Assembly (NCBI GenBank): GCA_024276425.1
Contig: JAJRXF010000153.1
Location: 1-45,510 of the forward strand
Length of the DNA stretch: 45,510 nucleotides
Direction of reading: 5' to 3'
Source of the DNA: Actinomycetes bacterium
GTDB lineage: Bacteria; Actinomycetota; Acidimicrobiia; Acidimicrobiales; SZUA-35
Positions 6,686 through 18,007 of the stretch are shown one piece after another. The notes under the pieces were generated by a model. It was not told the origin of the DNA and did not search any database. It saw only the letters and a program-made list of their open reading frames with translations. The position numbers were made by a program, and so were the translations under genes. The first letter of the stretch is position 1, and each line of letters opens with the position of its first letter.

Positions 6686-7618
6686 CTAGTCCCTCAAGGC
6701 CCGACCGGTGAGGTGAAGGAAGACAGCTTCCAGGTCGGGAACATCAATCTGGACTCCGCGGACTTCAACATCATTGTCCTCGAACAGGTGCAGAATGCGC
6801 GTTAAGTTACGGCCACCATCTCGGAGTAGAACTCGCAACTGGCCCTCCTTGGCGGAGGCTGTGGACACAAATGTGAGCGCCTCAATCTGCTCGACCAGGG
6901 GGCTGAGGGCTCCAGGACTTTCGATAGTCACACGATCCAGTTGGCCGATTTGGCGCACGAGGTCTCGCTGGGTTCCTTCGGCGATAACGCTTCCGTGATC
7001 AATAATTCCAACGCGGTTGCACAAACGTTCGGCTTCCTCCATGTAGTGGGTGGTGTACAGCACGGCCATGCCTTCGGTGGCGAGACGCTCGACCGCACCC
7101 AAAATCGCGTTGCGGCTTTGAGGGTCGACTCCGACAGTTGGCTCATCCAGTATGAGTAACTCGGGCCGATGAGTCATCCCAACCCCGATGTTCAACCTTC
7201 GAGTCATACCGCCGGAGAATTCCGCCACAAGATCATCTGCGCGATCTGCCAGACCGATGACGTCGAGCACTTCATCCACCCGCCTCTTTAGTTGGGGTCC
7301 TTTGAATCCTTGGAGACGACCAAAGAAGACCAGATTCTCACGGGCCGAGAGTTCCGGGTAGAGGGCGATTTCTTGTGGCACGTACCCAATCGCGGAGCGT
7401 AGGGACACGGTGCCGGTATTCATTTGTTGGCCCTTGATGAGGACTTCACCGCCGTCTTTGCCAAGCAGCCCACACACGATGGAGATCGTTGTGGTCTTCC
7501 CGGCGCCGTTCGGTCCCAGCAAACCGTAGGTTTCTCCGGGAGCTATGTAGAACGAGACGTCATCAACAACAGTGTGGTCTCCAAACCTCTTTCGAATCGA
7601 TTTGCATTCGAGAATCAC
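6686..7618 (-). CDS. ABC-2 exporter ATP-binding protein
   Basis: A 310-residue cytoplasmic ATPase of the drug/lipid-export (DrrA/CcmA-like) class. Walker A is GPNGAGKTTT near residue 35; the Q-loop region reads GYVPQEIALYPELSARENL; the signature is EFSGGMTRRLN near residue 140; Walker B is LLILDEPTVGVDP near residue 158; and the switch His lies in LYTTHYMEEAE. A C-terminal extension of about 100 residues (VTIESPGALSPLVEQIEALTF onward, truncated here for length) is typical of this subgroup. It overlaps the upstream dehydratase gene by 4 bp and abuts the first permease, so the order is dehydratase, ATPase, permease, permease in one transcript. Confidence 0.93.
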   Translation of the reverse strand: MILECKSIRKRFGDHTVVDDVSFYIAPGETYGLLGPNGAGKTTTISIVCGLLGKDGGEVLIKGQQMNTGTVSLRSAIGYVPQEIALYPELSARENLVFFGRLQGFKGPQLKRRVDEVLDVIGLADRADDLVAEFSGGMTRRLNIGVGMTHRPELLILDEPTVGVDPQSRNAILGAVERLATEGMAVLYTTHYMEEAERLCNRVGIIDHGSVIAEGTQRDLVRQIGQLDRVTIESPGALSPLVEQIEALTFVSTASAKEGQLRVLLRDGGRNLTRILHLFEDNDVEVRGVQIDVPDLEAVFLHLTGRALRD

Positions 7619-8637
7619 GAGTCCACCACCTCTGTGTCTGGCTGGTCACCAATCAACTGACAGAAGCGAGTCCAGCCAATGTTGCCGCCAGACAAGGTCA
7701 CGCCGACGCGCTTGCCCTCCAAGCCGAGATCACCTCGATTGAGAACCGCGGCCAAGGCGGATGCGCCACTGGGCTCGACCACCAGCTTGGTGTGCTCGAA
7801 CAACAACCGCATCGCCGACACGATTTCTTGGTCGCTAACGACGGGGAAGGACTTTGTCCCTCGACTGGTGATTGGCCAGGTCAGTTCGCCGGGAGTCGAA
7901 ACCTGTTGGCCGTCGGCAATCGTTCGGGGGATGTCGATCACCACCCGCTCCCCCGCTGCTTGAGAAAGGGCGTGGTCGTTGCCAGCCTCGGGCTCCACTC
8001 CGTGAACCTCGATTTCACCAGCCAAGGCCGAAACCACCGTTGCACAGCCGGCCAGGAGACCACCACCGCCAACACACACAAAGATCGCGTCAAGATTGCC
8101 GACCTGGTCGAGTAACTCAAGAGCAGTCGTACCTTGGCCTGCCATGACCAATGGATTGTCATAGGGCTTGATCAACACCCGGTTCTCATCGGTAGCAATG
8201 CTCTGCGCGATGGCTTCACGATCCTCGCCATAGCGGTCGTAGCTGACAATGGTGGCGCCGCTGGCCCTTACCCCTTCGACCTTCTCGGGTGGGGCGTCAG
8301 TTGGCATCACGATTACTGCTGTGGTTTGACACAGGGCCGCTGCTCTGGCGATTGCTTGGGCATGATTGCCGGAGGAGAACGCAACGACTCCAGCCCCTAT
8401 TTGTTCGGCATCCAAAGAGCGGATGGCGTTGTAGGCCCCGCGGAACTTAAAGGACCCGGTGAGCTGCAGATTCTCGGCCTTCAAAAACAACTGACACCCG
8501 GCCAACTCGTCCAACTCGGGGCTGAGGATCACAGGCGTGTGGGTAGCCACGCCGGCTAGTCTGCTCGCCGCATTCCAAACATCATCAAGAGTAATCACCG
8601 CTGGCAGCCTAAAGCAGCGAAGGTAAGAGGCAGGCAC
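7615..8637 (-). CDS. threonine/serine dehydratase-family PLP enzyme
   Basis: A fold-type II pyridoxal-phosphate enzyme of 340 residues. SFKFRGAYNA near residue 62 carries the PLP lysine, AFSSGNHAQA follows near residue 90, VCVGGGGLLAG near residue 187 binds the cofactor phosphate, and VEPSGASALAA and VTLSGGNIGW close the domain. There is no C-terminal ACT-like regulatory domain, so it resembles the catabolic (TdcB-like) threonine dehydratase or serine racemase/dehydratase group rather than full-length IlvA. The usual start could be ATG 8637 or the GTG at 8598, where family similarity begins. It overlaps the ABC ATPase gene by four bases. A link between amino-acid deamination and the exporter is not obvious. 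Confidence 0.87.
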   Translation of the reverse strand: MPASYLRCFRLPAVITLDDVWNAASRLAGVATHTPVILSPELDELAGCQLFLKAENLQLTGSFKFRGAYNAIRSLDAEQIGAGVVAFSSGNHAQAIARAAALCQTTAVIVMPTDAPPEKVEGVRASGATIVSYDRYGEDREAIAQSIATDENRVLIKPYDNPLVMAGQGTTALELLDQVGNLDAIFVCVGGGGLLAGCATVVSALAGEIEVHGVEPEAGNDHALSQAAGERVVIDIPRTIADGQQVSTPGELTWPITSRGTKSFPVVSDQEIVSAMRLLFEHTKLVVEPSGASALAAVLNRGDLGLEGKRVGVTLSGGNIGWTRFCQLIGDQPDTEVVDS

Positions 8638-8669
8638 GATATTCGGGCCTCGGACGATCAGGATGCAAC

Positions 8670-8858
8670 TTAACCTTCGCGCCTCTGGTCCGCGACGGTC
8701 TCTATACTTCGGAGGTAGCCAGGCGGGATCGTTTCCAAGTTCAGATCATCAAGCCCCATTAGGGCAACTGCGGTGTGCTCATCACTGATTGAGAACTCGC
8801 TCGGCTGGTCCGGCCAATGGTCCTCGACATGGCGTTCTTGCCCATTCTCATTTAACAC
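8670..8858 (-). CDS. small hypothetical protein
   Basis: A 62-codon frame read from a GTG at 8856-8858 that has an excellent AGGAG eight bases upstream; a TTG at 8873 is the next upstream alternative. The product is acidic and polar, without membrane segments or cysteines beyond the possible upstream extension, and contains HTAVALMGLDDLNLETIPP, which looks like a short αβ segment. It lies between the methyltransferase and the dehydratase on the same strand with short gaps, as expected for an operon member. I do not recognise a family. Confidence 0.5.
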   Translation of the reverse strand: MLNENGQERHVEDHWPDQPSEFSISDEHTAVALMGLDDLNLETIPPGYLRSIETVADQRREG

Positions 8859-8889
8859 GCAACCGCTCCTCAACCAGGGGGCCAGGATG

Positions 8890-9771
8890 CTAGGACGACT
8901 TGCCCTCTTGGGCGGCGCTACCCGATGCCCGCACCCCGGTGTAAAGCATCCGGCTCATCTCAATGGAAATGTCGGTAGACAGCTCAATTCCCTCGGGGTG
9001 TGCCGAATCCAGCAACTCCTCAATGACAAGAACGTCTTGAGCCTCCATGTAGGAAGCGCAACGGTCGACAGCCCGGCGCAGGTATCTGGTCAACCAACGC
9101 CGCTCCCGGCTGCTTAGCACGGGTGAATGTAAGATCTGACATTCGGTTGCACCAACTTCACTGAGCCGGAGGGAATTGAGGAGCTCCTCCCAATTGGTGG
9201 AAGAAGGATCGTGTCCAAGGTGATCGATCCGACTTGTGGCCAAAGCCTGGCCGAAGCGAACCCAGACCCCATCAGCGGTGACGGGGGAAGCTTCGGGCCA
9301 CACACGGAGTTCGGCGCCAAACTCGTTGACAACTATTCGCCCACCTGGAGCGACAAGTTTCACCGCGTTCCTCAGCCCGCTGGCCGAGTCCGTTGTGTGA
9401 TGGAGTGACAACGAGGCCCACACCAGGTCGACCGGCTCAAGAAGCTGGCAAAGATCCACGTCAAAGTCACCGAGCAAGAATTCGACTCGGTTGGAAAGAT
9501 CGGCGTCCTCGACACGGTTCGAAGCCGATTCCAACATCGCGGGGGAAACGTCGATAGCGATAACGGTGGCTGCTGGGAATCGTTTGGCAAGCTCCACAGT
9601 TCCGATCCCGTGGCCGCATCCAAGATCAACCAGGCGGTTAACTCTGCCAGAGGGAATATGCGACTCCAGGTGATCGAGAACGGGTAGCAGGGTGATCTCT
9701 GCATCTAGGGTGGCATCGGAGGCGGTCGCTGCGCCGTGGCCTGGTTCGTGGTCTTCCCTCGAAGAGTTCAT
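8890..9771 (-). CDS. class I SAM-dependent methyltransferase
   Basis: A 293-residue protein. Motif I of the Rossmann-like fold reads RLVDLGCGHGIGTVELAKRF at about residues 45-64. It is followed by an acidic end of β2 (VIAIDVSPAML), then LLGDFDVDL and DLVWASLSLHHT, which match motifs II to IV. APGGRIVVNEFG is the post-β5 motif. The last 80 residues are helical and probably form the substrate cap. It resembles small-molecule methyltransferases of the UbiE/trans-aconitate group, and the substrate is unknown. It begins 19 bp after the stop of the candidate selenoprotein and is probably cotranscribed with it. Confidence 0.85.
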   Translation of the reverse strand: MNSSREDHEPGHGAATASDATLDAEITLLPVLDHLESHIPSGRVNRLVDLGCGHGIGTVELAKRFPAATVIAIDVSPAMLESASNRVEDADLSNRVEFLLGDFDVDLCQLLEPVDLVWASLSLHHTTDSASGLRNAVKLVAPGGRIVVNEFGAELRVWPEASPVTADGVWVRFGQALATSRIDHLGHDPSSTNWEELLNSLRLSEVGATECQILHSPVLSSRERRWLTRYLRRAVDRCASYMEAQDVLVIEELLDSAHPEGIELSTDISIEMSRMLYTGVRASGSAAQEGKSS

Positions 9772-9790
9772 CCACGGACACTAGGCGCTT

Positions 9791-10264
9791 TTAGTCGCCC
9801 AGCAGTTGTTTGGCTGCGTTCCCCGCTCGGTTATTTAGGTTGGCCTGGCCGCACACGAGAATCAGTTCGGCCAGCTCAGTTTCTGCAAACTGAGCCTTGA
9901 GTTCCGCGATCAGACTAGGGGGCAGAGCATCAGTGTCCGGGCCGCACATCGCGTTGGCAAGGTGCAATGCAGCCCTCGTTTTGGCGTCGAACACCTCAGC
10001 CCAACATGCAGAGTCCTGAAGTGCCTCGACCTCATCTTCGGAGACTCCTCGTCGTCTCGCCGAGACAACATGACTGCTCAGTCACGTCGGACAACGATTG
10101 ACAATGGATGATCGAATAAAGGTCAGTTCCTTTAGACGCAGCGCAACGGTTCCGTCGCTAGACCACGCAGCCTGGCCGAAAGCCTTGTAGGCATCGGCTG
10201 TGCCATCGACCAACGCCAGTGTGTAGCCCAAGGGAGCGCCAGACAGTTTGGGTCGAATCTTCAT
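9791..10264 (-). CDS. AhpD/carboxymuconolactone-decarboxylase-fold protein with in-frame TGA: candidate selenoprotein (CxxU)
   Basis: The frame runs from ATG 10264 to TAA at 9791 and would encode 157 residues, interrupted only by a TGA at 10084-10082 (codon 61). Both halves are in the same frame, so this is not a frameshift. Before the TGA is ALRLKELTFIRSSIVNRCPT and after it LSSHVVSARRRGVSEDEVEA. AhpD-like proteins have CxxC followed by xxxH at exactly this place, so the TGA replaces the second cysteine: C58-P-T-U61…H65. A perfect hairpin with a G-starting loop lies 20 nt downstream (see 10051-10069). AhpD-fold proteins use the Cys pair for peroxide/disulfide chemistry, and CMD/AhpD-like selenoproteins are a known class in marine metagenomes. 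If selenocysteine is not inserted, only a useless 60-residue piece is made. Selenocysteine machinery lies outside the window, so the call rests on sequence alone. Confidence 0.82.
10051..10069 (-). promoter_or_regulatory. bacterial SECIS-like hairpin for UGA recoding
   Basis: On the coding (minus) strand GTTGTCTC, loop GGC, GAGACGAC form an 8-bp stem (seven Watson-Crick pairs and one T·G). It lies inside the coding sequence, and its loop begins 20 nt after the TGA at 10084-10082. Known bacterial SECIS elements are short stems with at least one G among the first two loop bases, within roughly 16-37 nt of the UGA; this one fits. Immediately before it, 10084-10071 forms a second perfect 5-bp hairpin (TGACT, loop GAGC, AGTCA) that contains the UGA itself. 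Confidence 0.7.
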
Positions 10265-10345
10265 CGATCAGCAGTATGGCACAGACCTAGACTGGGACCA
10301 CATAGAGCATCAACCCGTAGGTCAAAAACTCTTCACCCAACCGAC

Positions 10346-10374
10346 TTACGACTGAGCCTCAACCGTGTTACAAC
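10346..10374 (+). promoter_or_regulatory. possible promoter for a near-leaderless transcript
   Basis: TTACGA (10346-10351) and TACAAC (10369-10374) are separated by 17 bp. The first ATG follows 8 bases after the second hexamer, so a transcript from here would be leaderless or nearly so, as is common in actinobacteria. No Shine-Dalgarno is present before the ATG, which agrees. Both hexamers are imperfect. Confidence 0.35.
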
Positions 10375-10382
10375 TAGCATCC

Positions 10383-10781
10383 ATGTGGACATCCCTTCAT
10401 CGAACCGGTAGCGCACTCCTGATCGCGCTTGTTGCTGTGCAGGCCATCATCGCCGGGCAGCACATTTTCGGCACCTGGGGCATCGAGATACATGCCGCCC
10501 TCGGGAATGCCACATTCGGGATCGCCGTTCTTGTCACGGCCATTGCCTTCCTCAAATTCGACGGCAACACCCTTGGTGTGATCGGGATCGTCATCATCGT
10601 GCTTGTCAGCGCTCAGATCGGGTTGGGCTATTCAGCGAGAAACTCCGAGGGTGCTGCCGCGCTTCACATTCCTTTGGGGGTAGGGGTGTTTGGCGCAGTC
10701 CTCTACCAACTGTTAGCCGCATGGCCGAGCCTGATCGGGCTTCGCACCCGAGCACCGATCTCTGGCACCGACGCTAGCTGA
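10383..10781 (+). CDS. small four-helix membrane protein
   Basis: A 132-residue protein that is almost all membrane. Hydrophobic segments lie at about residues 9-25 (ALLIALVAVQAIIAG), 37-58, 65-82 (LGVIGIVIIVLVSAQIGLGY) and 93-113. Histidines at GQHIF, EIHAAL and AALHIPLG sit near helix ends, a pattern seen in cytochrome b-like or DUF6220-like small membrane proteins, so haem binding is possible. ATG 10383 is preferred over the upstream in-frame start because of the promoter spacing. It is followed by a ferric-reductase-like gene on the same strand, which strengthens the idea of a membrane redox pair. Confidence 0.7.
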   Translation: MWTSLHRTGSALLIALVAVQAIIAGQHIFGTWGIEIHAALGNATFGIAVLVTAIAFLKFDGNTLGVIGIVIIVLVSAQIGLGYSARNSEGAAALHIPLGVGVFGAVLYQLLAAWPSLIGLRTRAPISGTDAS

Positions 10782-10855
10782 TCGTCTTCGACCACTATTG
10801 TTTGTCCCGCCAGACTTTTCCCTGTCTCGCTAAGCGCCCGCGAATTGGACTTCTG

Positions 10856-11581
10856 ATGCCGACAAAAACACGCACCACAACCAAGACCACACCCAAGTCC
10901 AGGGAACGACAAAAGCTCATTCGTCACGCAGTTGTCGCCCTCGTTTCCACCGCCCTTGTCGGATTTTTCTGGGCCACCCGCTCAAACTGGGTGGCCGATA
11001 TGCGACTCTGGAAAGCCGTCGGCGATGCGGCATACGTTCTCCTGCTTGCCTCCCTCACACTCGGACCTCTCACTCGTCTCGTACCTGCCACTCGGGGGTG
11101 GCTCCGGTGGCGCCGCCAAATTGGTATCTGGTTTGCCCTCGCTGCCACACTCCACGGCGGCCTCATTCTTAATGGATGGGCGCGCTGGAGTCTGCGCCGC
11201 TTCCTTGGTTATGAATTCGTCCCTCAGTTGAACCGTGAGGCTCGTCTCGAACCGGGCTTTGGGCTTGCCAACCTGATCGGCATCGTCGCCTTGATTCTTG
11301 CCTTGGTTTTGGCCGCCACCTCTTCTGATCGGGCCCTGCGGCGACTTGGTCGCCCCGCCTGGAGTTGGCTTCACCGCCTTACCCAGACCATCCTCGTCCT
11401 CTCGCTTCTACACGGCAGCTATTTTCTGTTTATTCACTTCACCCTGTCATTTCATAAGGCAGCTCCCCCAGACCTCGACTGGTTCCGGCTCCCTTTCCTC
11501 ATCACGGGCCTAGGAGTTGTCGCCCTGCAAGCGACTGCCTTTACTCGAAGCGGCTCCGAACTTAGCCGAGGCAAGGCCTGA
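10856..11581 (+). CDS. ferric-reductase-like transmembrane protein (MsrQ/YedZ-type fold)
   Basis: A 241-residue membrane protein. A basic N-terminus (TKTRTTTKTTPKSRERQK) precedes about six hydrophobic segments. RRQIGIWFALAATLHGGLIL places a His in a helix with the preceding Arg-Arg, and SWLHRLTQTILVLSLLHGSY places two more, which is the bis-His haem-binding layout of the ferric-reductase-like domain. ATG 10856 is the first start matching the basic N-terminus; a TTG further upstream (10802) is less likely. No flavin or NAD domain is present, so an electron donor would be separate. Its partner molybdenum-type MsrP is not in the window. Confidence 0.75.
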   Translation: MPTKTRTTTKTTPKSRERQKLIRHAVVALVSTALVGFFWATRSNWVADMRLWKAVGDAAYVLLLASLTLGPLTRLVPATRGWLRWRRQIGIWFALAATLHGGLILNGWARWSLRRFLGYEFVPQLNREARLEPGFGLANLIGIVALILALVLAATSSDRALRRLGRPAWSWLHRLTQTILVLSLLHGSYFLFIHFTLSFHKAAPPDLDWFRLPFLITGLGVVALQATAFTRSGSELSRGKA

Positions 11582-12151: not shown

Positions 12152-13873
12152 ATGAAAAGAGTGACAGCCCTATTGGTTGCGCTGACGCTGGTAGCTGCCG
12201 CATGCGGTGGCTCCAGTGGCGACGACGGCGAAAGTTCAGGGGCACCAGCCACTGACACCGAAACCGAAACCGACTCGCCGACAACCACCGCGGCACCCGC
12301 CGACACTGGGTCCGGAGGCACCCTCACAATCGGCCTGTTCCAAGAGCCCGACAACCTCAACCCCTTCCTGGCGGTGCAGACGGCGAGCCGCATGGTTCGT
12401 GACCTCGTACTCGAAGGTCTGGTCGATGCTGATCCAGACGGCAACTATGTTCCGGAGTTGGCCGAAGTTCCTTCGGTGGACAATGGCACAATCTCTGAGG
12501 ATGGGCTAACCGTCACCTACAATCTGGTCGACGGTATTACCTGGTCCGATGAGCACCCGTTCACCTCACGAGACGTGCAATTTACCTGGGAAACCGTAAT
12601 GGACCCGGGTAACGCAGTCACCACTCAGAAGGGCTACGAAGACATCGCCTCCATCGAGACACCTGATGACCAAACGGTCGTGGTGACCTACACCAAGCTC
12701 TACTCTGCGGCCCTTTCGCTCTTCAGTATCCCGGAAGCAATCCTCCCCGCCCACGTCCTTGAAGGCGAATCATTCGGTGACGCCGAATTCAACCGGATCC
12801 CCGAAGGAACGGGACCGTTCATGGTTGCGGAATGGAACTCTGGCCAGTCCATTATTCTTGAGCGCAACCCCAACTATCGAGTTGCGAACAGCCCCCAACT
12901 CGACCGAATCATCTTCAAGATCATTCCCGACCAGAACGCAGGCATCGCCCAAATGCGGACCGGCGACATCGATGTATTCTGGAATGTTGACTCCGCTGTC
13001 ATCGATCAATTTGATGGGATGGAAGGGGTGGACGTACAGGTCACACCGTCCTCCAATGTGGAGTACCTCGGCTTGAACCTAAGCTCTGGCTCTGATCCAA
13101 ACACACCTCACTTCGCTTTCGGCGATCCAAACGTGAGGCTTGCCTTGGCCATGGCCATCGACCGCACTCCCATTATCGAAGAACTACTCTTCGGCTTGTC
13201 CGAAGCGGCGACCTCACCTATCGGTCTCGGTTGGGCCGCTCCTGAGGGGCTCTCGAACCCTGCGTATGATCCCGATGGAGCCCGAGCACTGCTCGAAGAA
13301 GCCGGTTGGGTCGATAGTGGCGACGGCATCCGAGAAAAGGATGGACAAAGGCTGACATTGGAAATTTCCACCCCCACCGGTCAGCAAGTTCGTGAACTTA
13401 CCGAGCAGGTCCTGCAAGAGCAGTTCAAGGCCGTCGGAATTGAACTCGTGATCAACAACGTGCCCGCAGCCACCCTGTTCGGCAACTGGGCCGAGAACGG
13501 CAAGCTGCAGCGTGGTGACTTCGATATCACCATGGACACATGGGGACCCGACCTGGACCCAGCCGGATTCCTTGGGATTCTCTTTGATTCCAAGTCAATT
13601 CCGCAAGACCCTGGCGGACAGGGATGGAACTTCTTCCGCTTGCAAAGCGACCGTTTGGACGCAGCAATCGAAGAGGGTGCAAGCACCCTTGATATCGAAG
13701 CTCGTCGAGCCGCCTACCGCACAGCGGTTGAAGAAATCCTGGCTGCGGGGGTCTACATCCCTCTGTACAAGCGATCCAAGCTCGACGCTTTCAGCCAGAA
13801 AGTCTCCGGCCAGTCTCCGAACCCGTGGGGTGAGTTGACCTGGAACGCAGAAGACTGGACAATCAGCAACTAG
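12152..13873 (+). CDS. ABC importer solute-binding lipoprotein, family 5 (Opp/Dpp/Nik type)
   Basis: A 573-residue extracytoplasmic lipoprotein. The signal peptide (KRVTALLVALTLVAAAC) ends in a lipobox with Cys at about residue 18, followed by a Ser/Thr/Asp/Pro linker to about residue 52. The SBP_bac_5 domain then starts with GGTLTIGLFQEPDNLNPF. Family marks include the RMVRDLVLEGLVDADPDG N-terminal lobe, FNRIPEGTGPFMVAEWNSG and the VRLALAMAIDRTPIIEELLF helix. It binds peptides, nickel complexes or other small ligands; the sequence does not decide which. It opens a plus-strand operon with two permease genes, and the CsoR/RcnR-like palindrome upstream raises the possibility of metal-linked control. 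Confidence 0.92.
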   Translation: MKRVTALLVALTLVAAACGGSSGDDGESSGAPATDTETETDSPTTTAAPADTGSGGTLTIGLFQEPDNLNPFLAVQTASRMVRDLVLEGLVDADPDGNYVPELAEVPSVDNGTISEDGLTVTYNLVDGITWSDEHPFTSRDVQFTWETVMDPGNAVTTQKGYEDIASIETPDDQTVVVTYTKLYSAALSLFSIPEAILPAHVLEGESFGDAEFNRIPEGTGPFMVAEWNSGQSIILERNPNYRVANSPQLDRIIFKIIPDQNAGIAQMRTGDIDVFWNVDSAVIDQFDGMEGVDVQVTPSSNVEYLGLNLSSGSDPNTPHFAFGDPNVRLALAMAIDRTPIIEELLFGLSEAATSPIGLGWAAPEGLSNPAYDPDGARALLEEAGWVDSGDGIREKDGQRLTLEISTPTGQQVRELTEQVLQEQFKAVGIELVINNVPAATLFGNWAENGKLQRGDFDITMDTWGPDLDPAGFLGILFDSKSIPQDPGGQGWNFFRLQSDRLDAAIEEGASTLDIEARRAAYRTAVEEILAAGVYIPLYKRSKLDAFSQKVSGQSPNPWGELTWNAEDWTISN

Positions 13874-13919
13874 TCCAAGGCCAGTAGAAGTAGTCGTCGC
13901 CTGAGAGGATGGTCACGCT

Positions 13920-14873
13920 TTGTTTAAGTTCGTGGTAAAGCGGGTTTTGCAAGCCGTGCCCATCCTCGTTGGCATATCGTTGGTGACGTTTATTCTGCTC
14001 CAACTCACTCCCGGCGGGCCGACCGCCGCCTATCGGGGCATAGCCAATGTCACGGGCGAAGACTTGGCCCGGATCGAGGCCGAGCTTGGTTTCGACAAAC
14101 CAATCTTCATCCAGTACTTCAGTTGGCTTGGCAAGTTTGTACAGGGCAATTGGGGTATCTCCTTCGTGGCCCGCGTGCCAGTGTTTGGGCTGATCATGGA
14201 GCGCTTGCCCGCAACCTTGTTGCTCATGGCGTCGGGGATCACCGTCTCCCTACTGTTGGCTATCCCCTTGGGCTTGCTGGCGGCCATCAAACGAGACACC
14301 TGGGTTGACCATGTGCTCACCTTCGCCAGTTTCGTTGGCCTGTCCATCCCGGTGTTCTGGCTTGGGCTCATGCTCATCATTGTCTTCTCGGTATGGCTTG
14401 GCTGGTTCCCGACTGGCGGCATGGGTCCGCCGGGCGAAGAGATCGGAGTCATGACCAGAATCAAATACCTCACCCTGCCAACCGTGGCAGTGTCGATGGT
14501 GTCCCTGTCGTTCTTCACCCGATACCTGCGGGCGTCCATGATCGAAACGATGGACGAGGACTATATGCGCTTCAACAAGGCTCGTGGCCTCCCGCCCATG
14601 CGGCGCTATATGAAGCACGCGTTTCGCAATGCTGGTATCCCGTTCGTGACGGTTGTAGCCATCCACATTCCGGAGTTTCTTGTTGGTGCACTAGTGGTCG
14701 AGACAATTTTCACTTGGCCTGGAACTGGAAGGCTCTTCTGGGACTCCGCCGTGCGTTTCGATTATCCCGTGCTGATGGGCATTTTGGTGCTCGGCTCGTT
14801 GATGGTTTTAGCCTCCAACCTGCTGGCCGATGTCCTGTACGCAAAACTAGATCCAAGGGTTCGCTTTGACTGA
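13920..14873 (+). CDS. ABC importer permease, DppB/OppB type
   Basis: A 317-residue inner-membrane permease. It starts with the family's N-terminal helix VVKRVLQAVPILVGISLVTF, followed by LQLTPGGP, the conserved 'PGDP-like' turn. The permease EAA loop lies near RYMKHAFRNAGIPFVTVVA, and the end reads [20 protein letters not shown], as in DppB. The start is a TTG at 13920 with an AGAGGA ten bases upstream; no ATG fits the N-terminal helix. Six membrane segments are visible. It follows the binding protein by 46 bp and overlaps the next permease's possible TTG start. Confidence 0.9.
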   Translation: MFKFVVKRVLQAVPILVGISLVTFILLQLTPGGPTAAYRGIANVTGEDLARIEAELGFDKPIFIQYFSWLGKFVQGNWGISFVARVPVFGLIMERLPATLLLMASGITVSLLLAIPLGLLAAIKRDTWVDHVLTFASFVGLSIPVFWLGLMLIIVFSVWLGWFPTGGMGPPGEEIGVMTRIKYLTLPTVAVSMVSLSFFTRYLRASMIETMDEDYMRFNKARGLPPMRRYMKHAFRNAGIPFVTVVAIHIPEFLVGALVVETIFTWPGTGRLFWDSAVRFDYPVLMGILVLGSLMVLASNLLADVLYAKLDPRVRFD

Positions 14874-15933
14874 AATGTCCACGAGCCGCCGACCGGGTGA
14901 GCACGCTCCGGAATCCGGACAGAACCTAACCTCGGACCACTTTGACGCTTTAGCGAGCGATGAAGAAGTCGATGAGTTGGCGAACTGGCGTCGCAACTGG
15001 CGCGCATTTCGCCGCAACCGCCCGGCCACGATCGGACTCATTGTCCTTATCACAATCTTGGCCTTGGCCATCTTTGGGCCAATGATCAGCCCCTATGACA
15101 CCCTCACACAAGATTTGGGCAACCGACTCCAGGGCCCATCCTTTGCCCACCCCATGGGAACCGACGAGCTTGGTCGAGATTCAATGACCCGCATTCTGGC
15201 AGGCGGACGCGTCTCCCTAGGAGTGGCGGCACTGGCCACCACGGTGGCCCTCACTGTCGGCGTAACCATCGGCTCTATAGCCGGGTTCTACGGTCGTTGG
15301 GTCGACAACGTGTTGATGCGCTTAACCGACCTCGCCCTCTCAATGCCCGACCTCTTCTTGTTGATTCTGGCAGCATCGCTACTGGGACCAAGCTTCGTCA
15401 CCATGGTGATTATCATTGGTCTGGTTCGTTGGATGAATGTTGCCCGCCTGATCCGAGGCTCCTTTCTCTCCCTTCGGGAACGTGAGTTCACCCTCTCCGC
15501 TGTCGCCTCCGGAACGCGTACGTTCGGGATTATCTTCAAACATCTTCTACCAAACTCCCTCAGCCCTCTGATCGTGGCCGGAACGCTCGGGGTTGCATCG
15601 GCCATCATCGCCGAGTCGACACTCAGTTTCCTCGGTCTGGGGCTCCAGCCGCCAGCATCCTCGTGGGGAACCATGCTGCGAAACGCCCAACAGGTCATCT
15701 TTTCTGCCCCGTGGGCCGCCGTGTTCCCTGGGGTCATGATCTTCCTCACCGTCGTCTCCGTCAACTTCATTGGCGATGGGTTACGAGACGTATTTGACCC
15801 AGGGGGCGCAACCCTTAGCCGGTCAAAATTTCAGAGTCGTCGGCGGTACCTGCAAACCAAGTTCGAAGAGCCTCAACTGATTGATCTCAGCGATCAAGCC
15901 GAAGGCGTCACCATTGTGGACCCATCAAGCTGA
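14866..15933 (+). CDS. ABC importer permease, DppC/OppC type
   Basis: A 355-residue permease. A polar N-terminus of about 45 residues (cytoplasmic) is followed by [18 protein letters not shown], segment 1. [21 protein letters not shown] is the conserved DppC soluble loop, the EAA loop is near [19 protein letters not shown], and [11 protein letters not shown] is the typical C-terminal motif. After it comes an unusual polar tail of about 45 residues. The start may be TTG 14866, overlapping dppB, or ATG 14875 just after its stop. Its last 40 bp overlap the convergent ATPase gene, so the tail is under double coding constraint. Confidence 0.9.
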
Positions 15934-17003
15934 GGGAAGTGGCACGAGACCCAGTGTCCGGGTAGCTGTTCTTCCAGTTGCGGTTCTTCTTGGACACATC
16001 GTTCTTGAACAACCGGGCAACGCGTACGAAAACTGCAACCGGTCGGCCTTCGAATAGCCGACGGGAGTTCCCCACTCAGAATGATTCGCCGCCGCTTCAG
16101 TTCAATCACCGGATCGGGGATCGGGACCGCAGACATTAGGGCTTGGGTATAGGGATGGAGGGGCGATCCGAACAAGTCAGCCTGAGTGGCGCGTTCGACG
16201 ATCTTGCCCAGGTACATGACTGCAATTTCGGTGCTGACATGCCGGACAACGGCTAGATCGTGGGCAATAAACAGGTAGCTCAGTCCGAGCTTCTGCTGTA
16301 GATCATCCAGCAGGTTCAATACCTGAGCCTGCACCGAAACATCCAAAGCCGAGACTGGTTCGTCCAGAATAACCAGGGATGGATTCAACGCCAGGGCTCT
16401 AGCTATACCGATCCTCTGGCGCTGACCGCCCGAAAACGAACGCGGGTGCCTCGTCGCATAGGATGGTTTCAGGCCAACAAGCTGTAGAAGCTCCTGAACT
16501 CGCTCAGCCCGAAAAGCCCTGGATCCAACCCCATGAGCTACCAGGGGCTCGGACACGATGGCTTGCACAGTCATTCTCGGGTTAAGCGACGCAATCGGAT
16601 CCTGAAAGACGATTTGGGCATTGCGACGCGCCTCACGTAATTCTCGCGACTCGGCCTGGGTTAGGTCGATAAATGGGGCCTTGCTCTGGTTCGAAGGGCT
16701 GGTATCCCCGGCCAAAGGACGCCCCTGTGGAGAACGAAACAAGACCTGGCCCGAAGTCGGTTCGATCAGCCGAAGAACACAACGGGCCGTGGTTGACTTT
16801 CCGCACCCCGATTCACCCACCAGGCTGAGAGTTTGTCCTTCCTTCACATCGAAGGAGACTCCGGCCACGGCCTGGAGGTATTGGGCCGGGCCGGAAATCC
16901 CCCTTCTCTTGACGAGGAACCTCTTGGTCAGGTCTCTCACCCGGAGAACGACGTCGGAATCGGAATCCTTGGCAGCGGTGAGAACAACCTCTTGGCTACT
17001 CAT
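15894..17003 (-). CDS. ABC importer ATP-binding protein, DppF/OppF type
   Basis: A 369-residue ATPase. Walker A is [10 protein letters not shown] near residue 63, the signature is [10 protein letters not shown] near residue 187, Walker B is [12 protein letters not shown] near residue 209, and the switch His is in [13 protein letters not shown]. The C-terminal oligopeptide-ABC domain contains [14 protein letters not shown] and a later CHFP, the cysteine pattern usual in this subfamily. Compared with typical DppF it has an insert of about 25 residues between Walker A and the Q-loop ([20 protein letters not shown]). It starts 4 bp inside the end of the DppD-type gene and runs convergently into the dppC gene. 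Confidence 0.92.
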
Positions 17004-18007
17004 ACGCCTGCTCGATCCGTCTCAAGATTGAACTGTCCGGCAAAGTGGCAGGCGCATTCCTTGGGTGAATCACCACAGCAACTCCTGGGCCGCTCGGAGA
17101 CGCACTTGTCCGTGGCGTAGTCACAACGAGGCCAGAAACGACAGCCACGCGGGGGCTGGATCATGGACGGAGCGACGCCACGAATCGAATACAGCTTGGT
17201 CTGAGAGTCATCATCGAGTCGAGGAACTGATTCGAGTAACCCACGGGTGTAGGGATGCTCGGGGTTGGCATAGAGCTGACCGGCAGGTCCCCGCTCGATG
17301 ATCTCCCCCGCATACATGACCTGCACGTTCTCGCAGAAGCCTGCGACGACACCAAGATCATGAGTGATGAGCATCACCGCAGTACCGCGATCATCGGCCA
17401 GGCCGAGCATGAGATCCATGACTTGAGCCTGGGAGGTTACATCGAGGGCCGTCGTTGGCTCATCGGCAATTAGCAGGGCCGGGTCGCACAGCAGAGCCAT
17501 AGCAATTACTACCCGTTGACGCATCCCGCCCGAGAACTGGTGGGGATAGTCCTTGAACCTCTTTTCCGGACTTGGAATGTGAACGTCGGCCAGGGTGTCA
17601 ATCGCTACCGTGCGGGCTTCTTGGCGGGACATTCCCCGATGAATTCGCAATGTTTCGGTGAGCTGGCTTCCCACGGTGAACACTGGGTCCAGAGCCGTCA
17701 TTGGATCTTGGAAAATGATGGCAATCTCTCGACCACGAATCTTTTGCATCTCCCGCTCTGAGAGCCGAAGGAGATCTTGACCTCGAAAGCGAATTTGCCC
17801 TCCGACCACAGAGCCGGGAGGTTCGATGAGTCCCATGATCGAGGCGGCTGTCACTGATTTTCCTGACCCAGATTCACCAACGACACCCAGTCGTTCACCC
17901 TTTGACATTGAGAAGGAGATCCCATCGACGGCTCGTACATCACCGGAGTCGGTAAGAAAATACGTTCGTAGGTCGCGAACGTCCAACAATGGTGGGTCAG
18001 GAGTCAT
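17000..18007 (-). CDS. ABC importer ATP-binding protein, DppD/OppD type
   Basis: A 335-residue ATPase, the first of the minus-strand pair. Walker A is [10 protein letters not shown] near residue 41, the signature is [10 protein letters not shown] near residue 155, and Walker B is [13 protein letters not shown] near residue 176. The C-terminal domain has [14 protein letters not shown] and CHFAGQF. It overlaps the second ATPase gene by 4 bp, so the two are coupled. Together with the plus-strand binding protein and permeases it completes the importer. The two halves have separate promoters and converge. Confidence 0.92.

Follow-up and report, generated by a model that had tools for sequence, protein, structure and literature searches.

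A clade of CMD/AhpD-fold proteins in Acidimicrobiia with a conserved in-frame TGA and a predicted selenocysteine in a CxxU motif

AhpD-like and CMD selenoproteins with a CxxU motif were described in a survey of the Sargasso Sea (PMC1088965), and the GOS survey recorded 299 selenocysteine (Sec) sequences for the AhpD-like 1 family and 70 Sec and 207 Cys sequences for the AhpD-like 2 family (pfam02627) (PMC2398784). AhpD-like selenoproteins also appear in the table of a 2026 review, which gives the model TIGR01926 for one of them (PMC13188914). The clade of genes examined here is a further member of this kind of protein, which has been known since 2005, and the statement in the initial annotation that CxxU AhpD-like selenoproteins occur in marine bacteria agrees with both surveys. 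Like the AhpD-like 1, AhpD-like 2, and CMD-like proteins of the 2 surveys, the clade proteins have the predicted Sec at the end of the CxxU motif, and like the Sargasso Sea selenoproteins the genes have a predicted bacterial SECIS element right after the UGA (PMC1088965). Among the described proteins with a Cys pair, PA0269, an AhpD-like protein of Pseudomonas aeruginosa, has the residues Glu36, Cys48, Cys51, and His55 and reduces H2O2 weakly (PMC3141380). The AhpD protein of M. tuberculosis (1gu9, 1knc) has the same catalytic hairpin, with the spacing E-(11)-C-xx-C-xxx-H, but its chain is longer and carries the hairpin at the C-terminal end (PMC3141380).

The gene lies on the minus strand, at positions 9791 to 10264, of a stretch of 45,510 nucleotides from an Actinomycetes bacterium, which is here called the window. 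It was assigned to the CMD/AhpD-fold selenoproteins on the basis of its read-through frame, its match to PF02627, and its relatives. The initial annotation had described 2 AhpD-like frames that are separated only by an in-frame TGA, with no indel, and this was confirmed: when the TGA is read as U, the result is a single open frame of 157 residues, which extends from M1 (ATG) to a TAA stop and contains 1 TGA. The TGA represents codon 61 (positions 10082 to 10084, minus strand), the predicted Sec codon, and is part of the motif NRC58PTU61LSSH65VV. The match to the Pfam CMD family PF02627 spans the TGA, covering residues 22 to 104 with a score of 51.7 bits against a cut-off of 23 (E = 8.7e-14). 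The TGA is also located inside the match to the AhpD core model TIGR00778, to which the window protein scored 37.9 bits against a cut-off of 27.8, and which was matched by all 18 members of the clade included in the protein comparisons at E ≤ 0.001.

A scan of genome contigs identified 15 relatives with 61% to 71% identity, all of which (15 of 15) had a TGA at codon 61. Five of the 6 search patterns contained no Sec residue and the sixth required a Cys at the site, so that the scan was able to detect a close relative with Cys. In an order-wide search of 397 genomes with a profile that carried Cys at the Sec site, 20 genomes yielded a total of 21 matches at E ≤ 1e-25, and a single TGA was present in every match. 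The search of the class covered 395 genomes and gave 5 clade matches in 4 of them with E-values of 1.1e-58 or better, again with one TGA each, below which there was a gap to 6.3e-14. No match at E ≤ 1e-20 was obtained outside the window's own genome in a phylum sample of 396 genomes, and no relatives were present among the 33 stretches that matched in a scan of viral contigs for phage carriage. Most of the named relatives carry records as Acidimicrobiaceae, as Acidimicrobiales, or as actinobacteria of other kinds, a group to which the window probably belongs as well.

Codon-by-codon location placed the TGA in all 38 fetched copies, with a Cys codon 3 codons upstream, at codon 58, in every one of them. 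The 38 copies correspond to 25 distinct sequences over the 75 nucleotides from Cys58, including the window gene and its paralog, and the TGA was present in 25 of 25, a conservation that is far beyond chance. Whereas the Cys members of the GOS AhpD-like 2 family outnumber the Sec members, we found 25 Sec genes and no Cys version of the clade protein in these searches. The paralog is located in the same genome (G000:C20:8343-8813; L065:5001-5471), is 66% identical to the window protein, and has a TGA and a hairpin of its own. It was also noted that the paralog is flanked by a gene for a 2-hydroxyacid dehydrogenase and by a DDE-transposase-like ORF. The mean pairwise identity of 18 distinct genes was 67% for codons 1 to 60 and 64% for codons 73 to 157, and the divergence at third positions was 0.58 before the TGA and 0.60 after it, with a value of 0.29 in codons 62 to 72.

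In a tree that also contained 37 CMD proteins from outside the clade, which were taken from the loci retrieved for the class rather than from all class-wide matches, the 18 clade proteins were monophyletic with an SH-aLRT support of 99. Where the window protein matched NCBIfam models of a narrower AhpD type, its scores were below their cut-offs, and this includes the 3 models with a selenoprotein name (NF053654, NF041047, and NF041537). Two of these represent AhpD-related families named (seleno)proteins by NCBI that are weakly similar to the clade, namely the GSU3128 family (NF041047; 28.4 bits, cut-off 110; 17 of 18 members at E ≤ 0.001) and the YciW-related family (NF053654; 29.9 bits, cut-off 310; 18 of 18 members at E ≤ 0.001). 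The score for the peroxidase-related enzyme model TIGR01926 was 19.5 bits against a cut-off of 81.8, with 13 of 18 members at E ≤ 0.001. The window protein had no match at E ≤ 0.01 to the AhpD-related (seleno)protein model NF041238, which was matched by 9 of 18 members at E ≤ 0.001, judged by E-values only. Since the NCBIfam cut-offs were missed by the window protein and the clade, whose other 17 members were compared with these models by E-value, is monophyletic, it most likely represents a new subfamily, although the GOS AhpD-like 2 family, which was compared by its description only, may already contain it. Nothing on selenoproteins in Acidimicrobiales or Microtrichales, on Sec together with carboxymuconolactone decarboxylase in Actinobacteria, or on Bmp8 as a debrominase was found in the limited set of papers searched, and the terms "AhpD", "CMD", and "carboxymuconolactone" do not occur in the main text of PMC5029168.

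An AlphaFold model of the window protein, in which Sec was modeled as Cys, had a mean pLDDT of 90.4 and was all-helical, with helices 42 to 56 and 59 to 71 forming the hairpin region that holds the relay residues. The best structure matches were to PA0269 (7xw1, Z 19.1, 2.0 Å over 133 residues; 2o4d, Z 18.3), for which the values overall were Z 18 to 19 and 2.0 to 2.2 Å over 133 to 141 residues, followed by Atu0492 (Z 18.1) and other peroxidase-related CMD proteins. The matches to Bmp8 (6ohj, Z 16.7) and to AhpD of M. tuberculosis (Z 13.3) were lower. An alignment to the PA0269 structure 2ijc (E = 6.5e-12) positioned the TGA at the second Cys of CxxC, in line with its earlier placement at the second Cys of a CxxC...H motif, and paired Glu46 (positions 10127 to 10129), Cys58 (10091 to 10093), and His65 (10070 to 10072; codons all on the minus strand) with Glu36, Cys48, and His55. 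Glu46, Cys58, Sec61, and His65 were invariant in all 18 rows of the clade alignment. PA0269 (2ijc, 2o4d, 7xw1) thus shares the fold and the Glu/Cys/Cys/His layout with the window protein, at 27% to 28% identity in the structural alignment, but has Cys in place of Sec and CAYC where the window protein has CPTU. The AhpD protein of M. tuberculosis has Cys only and is more distant (Z 13, 12% to 13% identity). Between the 2 Cys residues, the relay includes Tyr50 in PA0269 and His132 in M. tuberculosis AhpD, and the corresponding residue is Thr60 in the window protein.

Taken jointly, it is very probable that the gene is a genuine selenoprotein gene, that the decoding of UGA61 is directed by the hairpin, and that the product is a redox protein of the PA0269 type with a Sec61/Cys58 cycle. 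How the clade protein would work, on which substrate, and with which partner is inferred as follows. The product would be an all-helical CMD/AhpD-fold redox protein in which Sec61 is deprotonated through a Glu46-His65 proton relay and attacks a peroxide, another electrophile, or a disulfide in a partner protein, for example a peroxiredoxin. Cys58, the partner of Sec61, would then resolve it to a selenenylsulfide, which would be regenerated by a cellular thiol reductant. The clade protein is thus likely to reduce peroxide or a partner disulfide by means of its selenol, and the fold and the active site suggest a thiol/selenol peroxidase-like activity, modeled on the weakly active PA0269.

The fold also leaves a small chance that the protein is a selenoprotein that serves to reduce an organic halide or another electrophile, in the manner of the CMD-fold debrominase Bmp8, rather than in peroxide defense. 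Bmp8 superimposed on the model with 3.0 Å over 149 residues, it had the top Foldseek TMq value, 0.78, among the 50 matches listed, and a Sec selenol would fit an attack on organic halides, as in the deiodinases. However, PA0269 and Atu0492 ranked above Bmp8 by both Z score and E-value, the identity of Bmp8 to the window protein was only 19% to 20% in the alignment, and no halogen-related Pfam name was obtained for 20 neighboring proteins, 5 of which had no match at all. More broadly, we regard it as doubtful, if conceivable, that the clade is an obligately Sec-containing one whose selenol chemistry is something other than peroxide removal, for example Bmp8-like dehalogenation or the reduction of an electrophile that a Cys enzyme is incapable of reducing. 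If true, such chemistry would explain that no replacement of Sec by Cys was seen in the clade.

The genomic neighborhood gave few clues to the function. The initial annotation had placed the gene first in an operon with a methyltransferase, a dehydratase, and an ABC exporter, of which only the methyltransferase gene is tightly adjacent. The gene for this class I SAM methyltransferase (positions 8890 to 9771) is located on the same strand and starts 19 nucleotides after the selenoprotein gene, and the 2 genes are possibly co-transcribed, although the link is not conserved. The inclusion of the dehydratase and the exporter was not sustained. The PLP dehydratase gene (7615 to 8637), which shares 4 nucleotides with the first ABC gene, is separated from the methyltransferase gene by a gap of 252 nucleotides, and the neighborhood is not conserved. 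Selenoproteins in which an arsenite methyltransferase is fused to an AhpD domain have been described (NF041537; table of PMC13188914), which would lend some plausibility to a dedicated operon for making or exporting a metabolite, but the methyltransferase passed no NCBIfam cut-off among the 25 of 59 matches listed.

We clustered the flanking ORFs of at least 80 residues from 18 loci, some of which had short flanks. The 2 largest clusters, from 7 and 6 loci, consisted of ORFs that overlap the selenoprotein gene on the opposite strand; apart from such antisense ORFs, the clusters spanned at most 3 of the 18 loci. No counterparts of the methyltransferase or the dehydratase were present among the flanking ORFs of the 17 other loci, and ORFs that clustered with the ABC ATPase were found at only 2 of these 17 loci, at a distance of kilobases. 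The neighbors at other loci were instead genes for DNA polymerase A, GGT/SurE, CNNM, VIT1, AMP-binding, and CopC/CopD proteins. In a Pfam scan of 20 neighbors, 15 had a match and no family recurred, except for 2 adjacent CNNM genes at one locus. Searches for sigma-70 promoter and terminator patterns at positions 8500 to 10450 gave none, a result that carries no weight either way. A dedicated operon of this composition is thus improbable, and since the neighborhood is not conserved, the operon reading adds little on function.

A few other features of the surroundings were noted. At 2 loci (L058:4172-4969 and L062:4199-4969), the selenoprotein gene is located 31 nucleotides after an ORF of one and the same cluster, identified as VIT1 by Pfam in L058, and 3 adjacent flank clusters (12 to 14) are common to these 2 loci only. 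Divergently oriented genes at positions 10365 to 11581 on the plus strand of the window encode a small protein with sub-threshold similarity to DUF6220 and a membrane protein that resembles ferric reductases and has sub-threshold similarity to MsrQ, and they may have a redox link with the selenoprotein gene. Further away, at positions 12152 to 18007, the list of ORFs indicated a solute-binding protein, 2 permeases, and 2 ATPases of a peptide-type ABC importer.

Returning to the reading of the gene as a selenoprotein gene, a predicted bacterial SECIS hairpin (positions 10051 to 10069, minus strand) with a 7-bp stem, GTTGTCT/AGACGAC, and the loop CGGCG starts 12 nucleotides after the TGA. It lies within the coding sequence right after the UGA and has a G in a small apical loop, in agreement with the criterion for bacterial SECIS elements as worded in PMC1088965. 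The stem spans codons 66 to 71 and the first base of codon 72. In the 25 distinct sequences, the stem positions were paired in 175 of 175 cells, and the loop contained GG in all 25. For 18 sequences, 126 of 126 stem cells were paired, compared with 29% to 71% when the partner strand was slid by 1 to 3 columns. Compensatory changes were observed in 4 cells altered on both sides, a number that was equaled in 0 of 500 shuffles of the 18 sequences. Changes on both sides affected only 2 of the 7 stem pairs, which was matched by 18 of 500 shuffles, and 3 of the 7 pairs were invariant; the number of further pair types at the stem was no higher than in the shuffles (289 of 500). RNAalifold, unprompted, returned the same stem plus flanking pairs.

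Constraint at the codon level was seen at the same place. The excess of synonymous identity over that expected from codon usage was 0.57 at codons 66 to 71, compared with 0.02 (sd 0.11) at 108 other codons, and of 121 windows examined for synonymous constraint, those starting at codons 67 and 66 ranked first and second. A pattern composed of the TGA, the half-stem, and the loop had exactly 2 matches in the genome, which were the 2 gene copies, and the reversed control had none. The folding energy of the 51 nucleotides from the TGA onward was ordinary (z = -0.58, with 49 of 200 shuffles as low), and the case for the hairpin therefore rests on the covariation and the codon constraint.

The genome of the window, with a size of 3.95 Mb and a completeness of 96%, contains the 4 components of the Sec machinery whose presence had been proposed as a check, selA, selB, selD, and the gene for tRNA-Sec (selC). 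For tRNA-Sec, only one match exceeded the Rfam cut-off of 47 bits, with a score of 65.7 bits, while 12 others fell short of it, and ARAGORN also called a tRNA-Sec with the anticodon TCA. The genes selA (395.5 bits) and selB (262.8 bits) are neighbors on contig 147 and selD (380 bits) is located on contig 2 (G000:C2:16019-16936; L018 / L070), all 3 with scores above the curated cut-offs. The selD frame has a TGA of its own, in the motif GAGUGCK, the usual place of Sec in SelD. Sec is therefore the best reading of the TGA in a further gene of this genome, and its selD appears itself to be a selenoprotein gene. In a set of 60 genomes, selA was present in 20 of 21 carriers of the clade gene and in 23 of 39 non-carriers, the latter chosen among the genomes listed for the family and the order (Fisher's exact test, p = 0.0027, with kinship ignored). 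The one carrier without a match to selA, G644, is 73% complete, and another carrier, G431, contained only a selA fragment that scored under the cut-off. The TGA and its retention across the clade, the hairpin in the RNA, and the Sec machinery were shown by computation, as were the predicted fold and the arrangement of the active-site residues, and the insertion of Sec at codon 61 is well supported on computational grounds. The UGA at this codon would be decoded as Sec by SelB with Sec-tRNA(Sec), and the hairpin in the coding sequence, 12 nucleotides downstream, would direct the decoding.

An in-frame TGA by itself names no amino acid, and the codon could be read as Trp or Gly by a changed code, or could represent a programmed stop with read-through and a short product. 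Both variants are very improbable. The TGA is used as a normal stop codon in the window, where it ends 8 of 14 gene coordinates checked and also 15 of the 33 long open frames that do not overlap one another. Furthermore, the aligned homologs of solved structure have Cys at the site, tRNA-Sec, selA, selB, and selD are present, and a hairpin under selection is located downstream. A changed code was rejected on these grounds. That the gene is a pseudogene or contains a sequencing error, its TGA having arisen by nonsense mutation or by misreading of a Cys codon (TGC, for example, which the initial annotation had named as a refutation), can be set aside as next to impossible and is refuted for the clade, even though an error can occur in a single assembled contig and the 2 halves of the gene taken alone resemble 2 short ORFs, because the same TGA is shared by all 25 distinct genes, which come from many assemblies and include the second copy in the same genome, and the sequence downstream of it shows protein-like conservation (dN of 0.22 to 0.34 between the window gene and 17 relatives, with a dS of at least 0.9 in 8 pairs and not computable in 9).

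Sec at the same site was also indicated outside the clade. The class-wide search gave 16 matches with one TGA, of which 5 belonged to the clade and 11 to other CMD proteins, and in 10 of these 11 the TGA was the last residue of CxxU. The remaining one, G303:C69, was discarded as a CxxU member, since its TGA lies beyond the core and is probably a plain stop. The 10 more distant proteins (L044, L045, L049, L075, and L076 to L081) have the forms CAFU, CNIU, CGYU, CGLU, CHYU, CHVU, and CAYU. Nine of them were included in the tree, while the tenth, G320, was left out. The 9 proteins were placed on several branches, and Sec at the site of the second Cys has therefore probably been gained or lost repeatedly in the CMD family. 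At least 5 changes were needed on the tree, 3 of them forced by well-supported branches; these counts are rough, as this quick tree had 23 open forks and long-branch warnings, and "Cys" in it denotes rows without an in-frame TGA, one of which (L091) has no CxxC.

The finding bears on how such enzymes are detected and on why Sec is maintained. Since an ordinary ORF search splits the selenoprotein gene of the window into 2 short ORFs, the enzyme is easily missed. The clade provides a clean case for asking why Sec has been kept: the searches gave 25 genes with Sec and none with Cys, and the hairpin can be read from the codon constraint alone. Because Sec and Cys lineages of CMD proteins occur within one class at the same site, the gain and loss of Sec can be studied here by means of paired enzymes.
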